Virus record (IMG/VR): IMGVR_UViG_3300020057_000128
Coordinates: 1-27,992 of that record
Source of the DNA: a virus
Length of the DNA: 27,992 bases
Strand: one strand, 5' to 3'
The notes under the pieces were generated by a model. That model searched no databases. It saw nothing but the letters and a program-made list of their open reading frames with translations, and had not been told where the DNA came from. Positions 1 through 23,021 of the stretch are shown here, in pieces (the stretch's first letter is position 1; each line of letters starts with the position of its first letter). Made by a program: the position numbers and the translations under genes.

Positions 1-561
1 CAGCTTGGCCACGTCGGCGGCGGCGGAGACGGACACCTTGCCCTGCTCGACAGCCTCGATGAGCGACGGCGCGCCTTCGGTCTTGACGACGCGAGCGGCA
101 CGGACGCTGCGTTCGCTGACGTTCAGCATCCCGGCGGCGGAAGCCTGGGTGACGGATGGGGCTTCCGTCGATGCCAAGAGCGGCAAATTTGCCGCTCTGG
201 AGCCTGCCCGCTCCCCCCATTCAAGGTTTGCGATGCGGGCCGCGACCATCGCGCGCTGGCTTTCGTCCAGGTGCCGGCGGTGGAGGTTGAGGCTGACGAC
301 ATACGAGACCAGCTCGGCGTCATCGCCCTGCCATTCGCGAAACGTGGGGTCGGCGCCGGACAGGGCGCAGGCGCGATAGCGGTTGCGGCCGTCGATGATG
401 CGGCCGTCAGCGTGGAGCACGATAGGCTCCCGCAGTCCGTTGGCCGCAATGTCATCCGCCAGCGCGCGCAGATCGCCAGCGCCGAGCAAGGGGAAGATTT
501 TTGCTACAGGGTGAAAGTCCCGCGGCGCGTCGTATTTGGCGAGCGCGGTCACGCGGGCCAT
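1..561 (-). CDS. ParB-like nuclease-domain protein (partial, C-terminus off the left edge)
   Basis: The reading frame is open for 187 codons from ATG at 561 to the window edge, with no stop, so it is partial. Residues about 15-115 look like a ParB/sulfiredoxin-type N-terminal domain. The best marker is IIDGRNRYRAC (residues 55-65), the conserved GxxRxxA(C) nucleotide-binding motif of that family, preceded by NGLREPIV. Residues about 137-160 (VTQASAAGMLNVSERSVRAA) look like a helix-turn-helix. Phage ParB-like proteins of this kind are DNA-binding regulators or accessory proteins; a partition role cannot be shown because no parA is in view. The ATG shares one base with the TGA of the YdaS-like gene upstream (TGATG), so the two are probably translationally coupled and under the same autoregulated promoter. 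Family assignment is firm; the exact role is not. Confidence 0.85.
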   Translation of the reverse strand, partial: MARVTALAKYDAPRDFHPVAKIFPLLGAGDLRALADDIAANGLREPIVLHADGRIIDGRNRYRACALSGADPTFREWQGDDAELVSYVVSLNLHRRHLDESQRAMVAARIANLEWGERAGSRAANLPLLASTEAPSVTQASAAGMLNVSERSVRAARVVKTEGAPSLIEAVEQGKVSVSAAADVAKL

Positions 562-3139: not shown

Positions 3140-3357
3140 GCGAGATCAAGGTTGAGCGAAACCTCCCCCTGGCGGATCAAATGATCAACGCCCCGACCCC
3201 CCCGACCAGCCCCGCCGAGTGCGAGGGCGCGTGGCGCGTCCGAATGGACGTGGCCGACGAATGCCACGCGAAGGGCGACTACGCCGCTGCCGCGCACCAC
3301 TGGCGCAAGGCGGACGAGATCGCCACCCGGCGCGATGAATTGGTGGGCGCGGGATGA
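3136..3357 (+). CDS. Unknown small protein with a TPR-like helical pair
   Basis: This 73-residue protein begins with GTG at 3136 (SEIKVERNLPLADQM), inside the stop of the previous gene. The second half (DECHAKGDYAAAAHHWRKAD) has the spacing of a single tetratricopeptide-like helical hairpin, with a small residue and aromatic/hydrophobic positions in the expected places. One such unit is not enough to call a TPR protein. Its stop overlaps the ATG of the YqaJ-type exonuclease (ATGA), so it is probably made together with it. Confidence 0.6.
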   Translation: MSEIKVERNLPLADQMINAPTPPTSPAECEGAWRVRMDVADECHAKGDYAAAAHHWRKADEIATRRDELVGAG

Positions 3358-4274
3358 CCGAGCGCATCCCCGCCACCGACCGCGCGGCCTGGCTCGCGCT
3401 CCGAAAGCGCGACATCACCGCATCCGACATCGCTGCCCTGTTCGGCCAGCATCCCTATCGGACGCGCTTTCAGGTCTACGCCGAGAAGACCGGCGCCAGC
3501 GACGGCATCGGAGACAACCCGGCCATGCGCCGGGGCCGCATCCTGGAGCCGGCCGTCGCCGAGGCGTGGTTCGAAGAACGCGGCGAGCGGCTGACGAAGT
3601 GCGCCGACTACGTGCGCGATCCGGCGCACCGCCTTGGCGCGACGCCCGACTACACCCGCCCGAACGGCGAGCCGGTCGAATGCAAGACCGTCGCGCCTGA
3701 AAAGTGGGAAGAATGGCGGGAGGCCGCGCCCTTGGCGTACCAGCTTCAGGCGCTTGTGCAGGCGATGTTGCTGGACGCGCCCCGCGCGTGGCTGGCCGTC
3801 CTGGTTGACAACCGGGCGAAGGATTTCCGCGTCTTTGAGGTGCCGCGCCATCCGAGCGCCGAGGCCAGGGTCATCGCCGCCGCTGCCGATTTCTGGCGCG
3901 CCGTCGCCGCCGGCGAGGTGCCCGCCGCCGACTACACGCGCGACGGGGACGCCATCGCAGCGATGTTTCCTCGCGACAGCGGCGAAGTTCTGGACCTCAG
4001 CGCCGACAACCGCCTGCACGAATTGCTCGCGAGGCGCGCCGACATCAAGGCCAGCCTCACCACCGCCGAGAAAGAAGCCGACGCGATTGACGCCGAGATC
4101 AAGGCGAAGATCGGCGAGGCTAGCGAGGCGACACTGCCGGGCTGGCGCGTCACCTACAAGGCGCAGACGAGGCCCGAACGGCTCATGGCCGCCTCGACGT
4201 TCAGAGTCCTCCGCGTCACCGACACAAGCAAACCAAAAAGCCGGAAGGCCGCACAGAAGGAAGAAGCAGCATGA
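3354..4274 (+). CDS. YqaJ-type viral recombinase exonuclease
   Basis: This 306-residue protein belongs to the YqaJ/lambda-exonuclease family, which degrades one strand of double-stranded DNA to expose single strands for annealing. Visible family motifs are ITASDIAALFG (residues 21-31), an acidic Glu in GRILEP (Glu65), GATPDY with Asp99, ECKT with Glu109 and Lys111 (the D...ExK nuclease core), and AYQLQ (residues 128-132). After residue about 215 it continues as a charged coiled-coil-like segment and a basic tail. It is followed with ATGA overlap by a RecT-like annealing protein, the normal partner in phage two-component recombination systems. Together they probably serve replication, repair or circularisation of the phage genome. 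Confidence 0.93.
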   Translation: MTERIPATDRAAWLALRKRDITASDIAALFGQHPYRTRFQVYAEKTGASDGIGDNPAMRRGRILEPAVAEAWFEERGERLTKCADYVRDPAHRLGATPDYTRPNGEPVECKTVAPEKWEEWREAAPLAYQLQALVQAMLLDAPRAWLAVLVDNRAKDFRVFEVPRHPSAEARVIAAAADFWRAVAAGEVPAADYTRDGDAIAAMFPRDSGEVLDLSADNRLHELLARRADIKASLTTAEKEADAIDAEIKAKIGEASEATLPGWRVTYKAQTRPERLMAASTFRVLRVTDTSKPKSRKAAQKEEAA

Positions 4275-5197
4275 CCGCCATCGCGCTACGCCCCGTCAAC
4301 GTCAACGACACCGCCACGCTCACCGCATCGGGCGGCGACATGATGAGCGACACCGCGCTGTTCGAACTCGCGCAGCGCTGGGCGACCGCATTCTCCAAGT
4401 CGCAACTCGTTCCCGCGCATCTTCGCGACAAGCCCGCCGACTGCCTTATCGGCATTCTCATGGCGCGACAGCTTCGCGTGAACCCGCTGCTAGTCTTGCA
4501 GAACATCTACATCGTCAGCGGCAAGGCCGGATGGGCGGCGAACTTCATGATCGCTTGCGCCAATTCCAGTGGGGTTCTGAAAGGCCGGATCACATGGGAG
4601 ACGCGCGGCTCCGGGCGCGACATGGAAGTGATGGCGAAAGCGACGACCGCCGACACCGGCGACCTCATCACCGCGACCGTTTCCATGCAGATGGCGCACG
4701 CGGAAGGCTGGACGAACAACAAGAAGTACCAAACGATGCCCGAGCACATGCTGCGCTGGCGCTCGGCGACGATGCTCATTCGCCTCTACTGCCCCGAGGT
4801 GTTGATGGGGATGCAGACGGCGGACGAGATCGAGGACACGCCGCGCGCCGAGACGAAGCAGATCATCCATTCGCTCGACGCCTTCGCCGGGGAAGATGCA
4901 GCAACCGAGGTCGAGACGGGCGCGGCCGCCGACGTCACCGAAGACGCCGCCGATTCCCAGGACGTGCCCGCGATCCCGCCCTCGCAGATGGCCTACGTCG
5001 AAGAAGTGGCGCGCCGGTTCGAGTCCTGCGGCGACGACGGCGCGCTCGACGATCTGCTGGCGACGGCGATGGAGAACGCGAAGGGAGACGGTGCGACCGA
5101 CGAGGTTGTCGCCGCGATTGTCGAACTGGCGAAAACCCAGCGCCTCCGCATCCAGCAGGCTGCGGCGAAGGCCGCGAAGCCGACGCGGAAGCAGTAG
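4271..5197 (+). CDS. recT: RecT-family single-strand annealing protein
   Basis: This 308-residue protein follows the exonuclease with a 4-bp overlap. The core up to about residue 190 shows the RecT pattern: an N-terminal helical part, CLIGILMARQLRVNPLLVLQ, the YIVSGKAGWAANFMIA strand region, and further on MLRWRSATMLIRLYCPEVLM with the ADEIED ending. RecT proteins bind the single strands made by the partner exonuclease and anneal them to complementary DNA. Residues about 200-230 form an acidic, Ala-rich linker, and the last 70 residues make a helical, finally basic tail (AAKAAKPTRKQ) that may help recruit host single-strand binding protein or DNA. It is the last protein gene of the rightward operon. 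Confidence 0.92.
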   Translation: MTAIALRPVNVNDTATLTASGGDMMSDTALFELAQRWATAFSKSQLVPAHLRDKPADCLIGILMARQLRVNPLLVLQNIYIVSGKAGWAANFMIACANSSGVLKGRITWETRGSGRDMEVMAKATTADTGDLITATVSMQMAHAEGWTNNKKYQTMPEHMLRWRSATMLIRLYCPEVLMGMQTADEIEDTPRAETKQIIHSLDAFAGEDAATEVETGAAADVTEDAADSQDVPAIPPSQMAYVEEVARRFESCGDDGALDDLLATAMENAKGDGATDEVVAAIVELAKTQRLRIQQAAAKAAKPTRKQ

Positions 5198-5222
5198 CCG
5201 TGCCGGACAACGCCGCCACCGC

Positions 5223-5236
5223 CTACCCGCGGGTAG
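5223..5236. repeat. Perfect 14-bp palindrome CTACCCG/CGGGTAG at the tRNA 5' end
   Basis: The palindrome CTACCCGCGGGTAG covers the 5' acceptor bases of the tRNA and the four bases before it. It replaces the bases needed to pair with the tRNA 3' end. It could be a protein-binding or recombination site, or simply the result of the change that broke the acceptor stem. Confidence 0.6.
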
Positions 5237-5301
5237 CTCAGGGGTAGAGCGCGGCGTTCACATCGCCGATGTCGGGGGTTCGATACCCTCCCCGCCCACC
5301 A
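5227..5301 (+). tRNA. tRNA-Val (anticodon CAC), with mismatched acceptor end
   Basis: A complete cloverleaf can be drawn: D stem GCTC/GAGC (5236-5250), anticodon stem CGGCG/CGCCG with loop TTCACAT (5252-5268, anticodon CAC at 5259-5261), five-base variable loop, T stem GGGGG/CCCTC with loop TTCGATA (5274-5290), discriminator A and encoded CCA (5298-5301). The acceptor stem is unusual: the 3' side is CCCGCCC (5291-5297), which calls for GGGCGGG at the 5' side, but the sequence reads CCGCGGG. Positions 1 and 2 would therefore be C-C mismatches. The altered 5' end is part of a 14-bp palindrome. It could be a functional phage tRNA, a decayed one, or an attachment-site copy of a host tRNA gene. 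Confidence 0.8.
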
Positions 5302-5324: not shown

Positions 5325-5720
5325 TCACGGCGAGGGCGTCGGCTCCACTGTCACCGCGCGGGGCAGCTCGGCGTTTCCGGCGAGTACGTCCGCGACCTCC
5401 AAACGGGCAAGCACCTTGTCAGCCAGCGTCGCGCCCACCGCCTTCGCCGTGTCAGGCGCCCCGGCTTCCAGAATGCGCCCGGCCTCGGCGACGACCTCGC
5501 CCACCCGGCCCGGCGGGACCGGCACGCCCGGCGCGGTGCCGATCACCTTGTTGAGCGCGGCCTGCACGACGCGGTTAAGGATCGCATCTACCTTGGTCGC
5601 CGTCTCGGCCCCGGCCCTGGCAATGAGCCACGTCCGCACATAGGGCAGGATGATGAGCGCGACGGCGGCGAGTACGACTTCGAGAAACTGGGCCTTGGCG
5701 AAGGCGAGAACGTCATCCAT
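5325..5720 (-). CDS. Holin-like protein with one N-terminal membrane segment
   Basis: This 131-residue protein starts at ATG 5720 after a good GGAG site. Residues about 13-33 (FLEVVLAAVALIILPYVRTW) form one hydrophobic segment. The rest is soluble and Ala/Val-rich (ATKVDAILNRVVQAALNKV), ending in a Pro-rich tail. This plan fits the LL-H-type phage holin family. A holin would accumulate in the inner membrane and open it at the time set for lysis. It is the last gene of the leftward late operon, close to two more small membrane proteins and an amidase, which supports a lysis role. The family call is from layout rather than from a diagnostic motif. Confidence 0.6.
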   Translation of the reverse strand: MDDVLAFAKAQFLEVVLAAVALIILPYVRTWLIARAGAETATKVDAILNRVVQAALNKVIGTAPGVPVPPGRVGEVVAEAGRILEAGAPDTAKAVGATLADKVLARLEVADVLAGNAELPRAVTVEPTPSP

Positions 5721-21736: not shown

Positions 21737-21765
21737 GGTTGTGTCTCCGTCAATTCCGAAAGGTA

Positions 21766-21793
21766 CGAGGGGCCAGCGGATGCCAGCCCCTCG
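21766..21793 (-). terminator. Strong hairpin after the major capsid gene (attenuator or mRNA stabiliser)
   Basis: A 12-bp stem (two G-T pairs) with a 4-base loop lies 7 bp after the capsid stop codon. The run after it is only CCTTTC, so it is a weak terminator at best. Such a hairpin could raise capsid mRNA stability or lower read-through into the neck genes. Confidence 0.55.
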
Positions 21794-21800
21794 CCAGTGC

Positions 21801-23021
21801 TTACGAGGTCAGGTCTGTGACCTGATCGCTAAAGTCGCCCTTGGTGAACGCGAGCGTGTTGTACACGGCGAGGGCCAGTCTCTCCTCGGCCAGAATGGTG
21901 ACGAGGTTCTTCCGGAAGTTCTGATCGTCCTCGGTGCTGATTTCGACGCGCGCATCCATGCGGTCGAAGATCTGCGCCGCGTCGCGGAACGCGCCGACCA
22001 GGAACTTGTCCACGGTCATCGCGGGGGTCTCGACCACGGGCAGGCCCCACAGCCGCGGCTGGCTGATCTCCCTTGGGTTGCCGATGATATAGGCCCCCGC
22101 CGTGTCCTTCGTCGTCTCGATCCCGAACCAGTCGGTCGGGTTGAGAACGATGCCGGACGGCGGGATGTTGGCGAGGCTCGCCTGCAACATCGCTGCGCGA
22201 ATGACGTCCAGTTTCGTCGGAGCCGTCACGACCGCAAGGTTGGCCGTGGAGGCCGTCGCCTGCGTGTAGATGCCGTTCAGGTCTGTGCCGGTGCCGCCGC
22301 CATTGAGCAGCTGGTTGTCCTCGACATACCGCAGGCCATAGATCAGGCGCCCGTTGATGTAGGACTGCAGCATCGGCACGTCGTCCAGAATCTGGCGTGT
22401 CGCCTGGACCCAGTGCGCGATGGTCGTCACGGCTCCATTCACGACCTCGAACTTGATCTCGGACTGAGGCTTCGCGGTGCCGGCGGTTTCAGTGTGGGTC
22501 GCCGCCGAGTTCGTATAACCACTCTCTTTGACGTACTGGATCGCGGACGAATTCGTCCGGCCGGGCGCAATCAGATCGCGAACGGTCATCTTGCGGAGAT
22601 ACGGCGAGACGATGCCGGGGATGCGGTCGGGCACCAAGAGGTCGCCGGCCGATCCGTCCGCGTCGGTCGCCAAGGACGAGATGATCGCCTTGGTCTCGAC
22701 GCTGATACGCCCGCGCGGATTGCCGAGCCACGCCTTGACGCCATCGTTTTCGGTGACGAACTCGCCGAGCGACTTGACGCGCCCCTTTTCGTTGGGGCGA
22801 TCACGGACCATCTTCTGCTCGATGTCGTCGAGCCGGGCCTTGGCGGCGTTTACCGCGACCAATGCTTCGTCCGCCGCCTGCTTCGCGCCGGCCGTGATCG
22901 GCTCACCCTTCTCGGCCTTGCCGAGAGCGTCCGTCGCGATAGCCTTGATCGCGTCGAACTTCTTGTCGAAGTCCGCGCGGAATTCCGCAGCCATCTCGGC
23001 CGCGCTCTTGGTCTCTGACAT
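21801..23021 (-). CDS. HK97-family major capsid protein
   Basis: This 406-residue protein starts at ATG 23021 after AAAGGG. An upstream in-frame extension is not supported. Residues 1-75 (MSETKSAAEMAAEFRADFDK) are the helical delta domain, removed by the protease in this family. The HK97 fold follows: LLVPDRIPGIVSPYLRKMTV, WVQATRQILDDVPMLQSYIN and LLNGGGTGTDLNGIYT, and the end part VTILAEERLALAVYNTLAF. It assembles hexamers and pentamers into the icosahedral shell. A stable hairpin follows the gene directly. The gene order protease, capsid is standard. Confidence 0.95.
   Translation of the reverse strand: MSETKSAAEMAAEFRADFDKKFDAIKAIATDALGKAEKGEPITAGAKQAADEALVAVNAAKARLDDIEQKMVRDRPNEKGRVKSLGEFVTENDGVKAWLGNPRGRISVETKAIISSLATDADGSAGDLLVPDRIPGIVSPYLRKMTVRDLIAPGRTNSSAIQYVKESGYTNSAATHTETAGTAKPQSEIKFEVVNGAVTTIAHWVQATRQILDDVPMLQSYINGRLIYGLRYVEDNQLLNGGGTGTDLNGIYTQATASTANLAVVTAPTKLDVIRAAMLQASLANIPPSGIVLNPTDWFGIETTKDTAGAYIIGNPREISQPRLWGLPVVETPAMTVDKFLVGAFRDAAQIFDRMDARVEISTEDDQNFRKNLVTILAEERLALAVYNTLAFTKGDFSDQVTDLTS

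Follow-up and report, generated by a model that had tools for sequence, protein, structure and literature searches.

A phage tRNA-Val(CAC) gene with two open acceptor pairs, possibly a captured tRNA with a decayed acceptor end

Genomic Context of the tRNA Gene

The stretch of DNA analyzed here (27,992 nt, IMG/VR record IMGVR_UViG_3300020057_000128; hereafter the window) is a 28-kb linear fragment with the genes of an HK97-type siphophage: terminase, portal, protease, capsid and tail genes, along with an endolysin that has a weak CHAP match. The presence of a YdaS/Cro-like regulator at 561-800 suggests that the phage is temperate. No phage integrase was found in the 28-kb window, the contig being a fragment, and no Thg1 homolog was found in the window or in five related contigs. 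On the plus strand, the gene for a RecE/YqaJ-type exonuclease (3354-4274; PHROG 434, E 2e-63; PF09588) overlaps that for a RecT-like ssDNA-annealing protein (4271-5197; PHROG 561, E 2e-62), and directly downstream of the latter lies a full-length tRNA-Val(CAC) gene (5227-5301, plus strand), the subject of this report. A 29-nt spacer (5198-5226, plus strand) separates the tRNA from the stop codon of recT; it is predicted by folding to pair into the 5′ half of the tRNA in the precursor, and recT and the tRNA are probably co-transcribed. About 23 nt past the tRNA is the stop of a convergent 131-aa ORF on the lysis side (5325-5720, minus strand), which is weakly holin-like (PF09682, E 0.055, below the cut-off).

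Two other features of the window are recorded here in their own right. The regions at 1128-1892 and 2080-2610 are tandem, near-identical ORF regions that end in long low-complexity runs of Ala, Ser, Trp, and Arg, coded by GCGGCGTGGAGC-like repeats; their PHROG matches are weak and are to families of unknown function only. The second feature emerges from the only near-identical contig found, L040, which does not reach the tRNA site. Around window positions 21738-21811 (6186-7094 in L040) the two sequences are 99-100% identical on both sides, and L040 has about 0.84 kb of extra sequence just downstream of the capsid gene. This extra sequence holds a 238-aa ORF that by eye resembles an HNH endonuclease (no Pfam match at E 0.001). 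The two near-identical phages differ in the presence of what appears to be an inserted gene.

Structure of the tRNA

The tRNA-Val(CAC) at 5227-5301 is the sole tRNA reported in the window by ARAGORN, and Rfam cmscan matches it end to end to RF00005 with 49.1 bits (gathering score 29), with just the two outermost pairs of the acceptor stem marked as non-standard. The acceptor strands are CCGCGGG on the 5′ side and CCCGCCC on the 3′ side. Positions 3-70 to 7-66 are paired, while the C residues at positions 1 and 2 (5227-5228, plus strand) are unpaired and face C72 and C71, the last two C residues of CCCGCCC before ACCA. Read by hand, the rest of the molecule consists of T8 and A9, the D-arm GCTC-AGGGGTA-GAGC, the anticodon arm CGGCG-TTCACAT-CGCCG, the variable loop ATGTC, and the T-arm GGGGG-TTCGATA-CCCTC, which has one G-T, followed by the 3′ acceptor strand, A73, and CCA. 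All of the stems other than the acceptor, the anticodon loop, the T-loop, the GG of the D-loop, and the encoded CCA are intact. An earlier note on this DNA had described such a tRNA, with C-C at 1-72 and 2-71, its other arms intact and CCA encoded, and the ARAGORN call, the covariance search, and the sequence all bear this description out; its span of 5223-5301, however, also took in four leader bases (5223-5226) that precede the tRNA. Based on its score above the cut-off, its anticodon CAC, and its A73 and CCA, the gene is of the Val isotype within RF00005. It is a tRNA by descent and overall fold, yet not a canonical one, as its acceptor stem has five pairs where the canonical stem has seven.

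To what extent such an acceptor stem is unusual can be judged from 242 distinct ARAGORN tRNAs in the phage and plasmid loci gathered here, 179 of which have an encoded CCA. The acceptor stem is fully paired in 208 of the 242 and a lone 1-72 mismatch is present in nine, while there is no tRNA in this small sample in which both 1-72 and 2-71 are unpaired. The double mismatch is unusual, measured against a baseline that is rough because ARAGORN disfavors mismatched stems.

The same note had drawn attention to a palindrome over the 5′ acceptor strand. This palindrome, CTACCCGCGGGTAG at 5223-5236, is exact over 14 nt and comprises the four leader bases and tRNA positions 1-10, but by itself it is no more than chance would produce: the window has four perfect palindromes of at least 14 nt, compared with 5.2 (s.d. 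2.6) expected from 40 first-order Markov simulations. Since it occurs at chance frequency it needs no explanation of its own, and we rejected it as a signal. A template switch is a possible origin, although two point substitutions account for it equally easily, because the tRNA-Val of another phage contig, L081, also has C at position 2. The inverted repeat GCCGGACAAC / GTTGATCCGGC, which flanks the tRNA, shows up in the folded precursor; it was rejected as a processing stem, as 17% of random places in the window equal it. The longest palindrome in the window is a perfect 22-nt AGAGCGGCAAATTTGCCGCTCT at 177-198, inside a ParB-like ORF.

Thermodynamic folding, which ignores base modification and co-transcriptional folding, gave very different predictions for the tRNA with and without its leader. 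Without the leader, a cloverleaf with a five-pair acceptor stem is predicted and pairs 3-70 to 7-66 form with a mean probability of 0.98. With its own 20-nt leader this probability is 9e-7, the lowest value in comparison with 160 CCA-bearing tRNAs treated alike, and the precursor is not predicted to form a cloverleaf. An intact tRNA-Val from phage contig L065 also folds badly with its leader (0.003), as do some other intact tRNAs, and we regard the predicted poor folding of the window tRNA as suggestive of weak function. Open pairs at 1-72 and 2-71 are expected to hamper 3′ trimming and EF-Tu binding. Demand for a CAC tRNA is not striking, given that GTG is used 21 times per 1000 codons in the phage genes and GTC, the most used Val codon, 32 times.

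Comparison with Other tRNA-Val Genes

In comparison with the intact tRNA-Val(CAC) of L065, the window tRNA has pair-preserving double changes at 7-66 and 29-41 (both T-A to G-C), whereas its 1-72 and 2-71 pairs are broken on the 5′ side only. By matching across the stems, these changes tie the two halves of the molecule together, indicating that both derive from one functional gene that was selected as a whole tRNA. Next in similarity, among annotated plasmids, are tRNA-Val genes of Rhodobacterales (81-84% identity); this similarity hints at an alphaproteobacterial source, although it falls short of identifying the host. When 84,980 species genomes were scanned for a host gene with the 3′ half of the tRNA (nine free positions) or with its 5′ half (free anticodon stem), none was found, and since both scans used strict patterns with no positive control this absence is no more than moderate evidence.

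Phages of this type do not carry the tRNA as a conserved gene. Among contigs with related TerL or RecT proteins there was no recognizable tRNA-Val, the sole match being 114 nt of G011 at 33 bits, and none of the 40 contigs that share the endolysin has a tRNA-Val, their only tRNA being a tRNA-Gly. The absence of the gene from all three of these sets indicates that its gain was sporadic. Likewise, the 25-nt 3′ end of the tRNA and its 17-nt 5′ junction were present in no other viral contig searched.

Copies of the 3′ half of tRNA-Val are present in L055, where an integrase lies upstream, and in seven further contigs (L059-L064, L066); in all of them, resemblance to a tRNA is lost upstream of the anticodon loop. 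Full-length tRNA-Val genes abut or neighbor tyrosine integrases in Paracoccus phage Pben1, L065, and L081, which suggests that tRNA-Val is a common att target, and the window tRNA could therefore have originated as a relic or a full-length attP. It is not a phage-borne copy of only the 3′ part of a host tRNA-Val, as the earlier note had considered: the whole tRNA is present, pair-preserving differences link its halves, the window has no integrase, and the 3′ half was in no sampled genome. Nor is it the 3′ half of a host gene fused to random phage DNA. An att copy of the integrase type would be expected to share 30-45 bp with the 3′ half of a host tRNA and to come from an element with its own integrase, usually next to the copy. 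Integration has been reported to give rise to sequences closely resembling a complete tRNA, among them a Thermococcus tRNA-Val(CAC) (PMC9897764). As an observation apart from the window, the full-length tRNA-Val genes by tyrosine integrases in phage sequence (L065 7865-7939, L081 2612-2686, L039 158-232) are unlike the usual 3′-half att copies and are possible candidates for tRNA-dependent lysogeny.

Discussion

We consider that there is about an even chance that the window tRNA is a sporadically captured, complete tRNA-Val(CAC) whose acceptor end has decayed, making it weak or dead. An HK97-type siphophage would have picked up the whole gene, putatively from a host tRNA-Val of alphaproteobacterial type, and possibly through tRNA-Val-directed integration, as this class appears to be often targeted by phage integrases. 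The captured tRNA would now be the last element behind recE-recT and be transcribed with these genes. Its outer two acceptor pairs may have been lost at capture or soon after, either through a junction at about position 3 or, just as possibly, through two point substitutions; the L081 tRNA has C at position 2, with G71, and the L065 tRNA has G at both positions 1 and 2. The RNA could fold with a 5-bp acceptor stem once the leader is removed, but its processing, charging, and EF-Tu binding would probably be poor. The gene would then be carried along with little or no function, perhaps as what is left of an attP. Among the options of the earlier note, which were a tRNA tolerant of or edited for the mismatch, a 3′-part att copy, and a dead tRNA, the last (as a weak or dead tRNA) is the best supported, based on the loss of the first two pairs, a predicted precursor fold that is not a cloverleaf, and the absence of the gene from relatives; editing and the att copy as worded there are not supported, although a relic or full-length attP is possible. 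A gene dead for a long time would not be expected to have kept all of its features other than the outer acceptor pairs, as this one has. The intact arms, loops, and CCA imply that the loss was recent or that function persists.

Persisting function would mean that a tRNA-Val(CAC) can work with its acceptor end open, an explanation we hold to be possible, if rather unlikely. Such a tRNA could supplement GTG decoding, replace a host tRNA cut by a defense nuclease, or cover for a host tRNA-Val broken by integration, i.e., tRNA-dependent lysogeny. Tolerance would account for the intactness of the other arms and the two pair-preserving differences from L065, GTG is in use in the phage genes (21 per 1000 codons), and a lone 1-72 mismatch is not rare among phage tRNAs (9/242). 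There are also precedents, in that tRNA-dependent lysogeny has been documented (PMC10865867), as have defense-evading phage tRNAs (PMC11555353). However, the window has no integrase, and GTC, at 32 per 1000 the most used Val codon, is unreadable by CAC. The two open outer pairs would also be expected to impair 3′-end trimming and EF-Tu binding. It is likewise unlikely that the gene is an attP at full length, still active or abandoned not long ago, whose 3′ half would restore a host tRNA-Val(CAC) when the phage integrates, leaving the 5′ end free to drift. The use of tRNA-Val as an att target by L055 and the seven further contigs is in keeping with an attP, as are the full-length genes by the integrases of Pben1, L065, and L081, and the L065 tRNA, flanked by lysis genes and int, has a position similar to that of the window tRNA. 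Against this, there are 28 kb with no integrase, the neighboring gene is recT, no genome among the 84,980 species had the 3′ half (nine free positions) or the 5′ half in scans with no positive control, and drift would be expected over the whole 5′ half rather than at two positions.

Two further explanations are much less probable. A sequencing or assembly error at the CC of 5227-5228 is highly improbable. The two mismatched bases are inside a GC-rich perfect palindrome and are known from a single contig, as near-identical L040 stops short of the site, but other palindromes of such size are about as frequent in the window as expected, and consensus contigs seldom contain two substitution errors side by side. 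Repair of the 5′ mismatches after transcription by a Thg1-like 3′-5′ polymerase, as in Acanthamoeba mitochondria, is extremely improbable. In some mitochondria, Thg1-like proteins repair mismatches within positions 1-3 by rewriting the 5′ side (PMC4284800), which is exactly where the window mismatches are, and bacterial Thg1-like proteins mend 5′-truncated tRNAs in vitro (PMC6471195). Nevertheless, according to a review, 5′-end mismatch editing has been reported only from eukaryotic organelles, with no known bacterial case, and Thg1 is reported to be missing from several alphaproteobacterial orders (PMC4284800). The window and related contigs have no Thg1 homolog, and a single mismatched tRNA does not make a pattern.

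In its most likely reading, as a captured phage tRNA-Val with an open acceptor end, the gene is mildly unusual and not a new kind of thing. As such it is a cautionary case, as tRNA callers report an ordinary tRNA-Val despite the broken acceptor end, and it adds a further possible connection between phages and the tRNA-Val integration hot spot. We find it very doubtful that this is a bacterial-virus tRNA that is made and works with two acceptor mismatches, whether unrepaired (e.g., resisting peptidyl-tRNA hydrolase or a defense nuclease) or after 5′-end repair. A functional tRNA of this kind would call into question how much of the acceptor stem is required in bacterial elongator tRNAs, or would reveal 5′-end repair in bacteria, which would be the first such editing there.

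There are known counterparts to several aspects of the window tRNA. The mitochondrial tRNAs edited at 5′ positions 1-3 (PMC4284800) also have mismatches confined to the outer acceptor pairs, although the window is from a bacterial virus, with one such tRNA and the editing enzyme absent. The tRNAs of tRNA-dependent lysogeny (PMC10865867) are similarly full-length phage tRNAs, and the window phage is perhaps temperate; in that system, however, there is an integrase, attB is within a host gene for a tRNA of matching isotype that integration does not rebuild, and the phage tRNA must function, whereas the window is known from a 28-kb fragment with no integrase. The 3′-half copies at attP or attR (L055; L059-L064, L066; cases in PMC9897764) are likewise phage-borne tRNA-Val sequences ending in CCA, but they begin at about the anticodon loop, unlike the whole paired tRNA of the window. 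The closest resemblance in form is to the phage tRNA-Val(CAC) genes of L065 (7865-7939) and L081 (2612-2686), which share its isotype, anticodon, length, D-arm, type of variable loop, T-arm, and encoded CCA; these have a fully paired acceptor and adjoin a tyrosine integrase, while the window tRNA has 1-72 and 2-71 open and adjoins recT.
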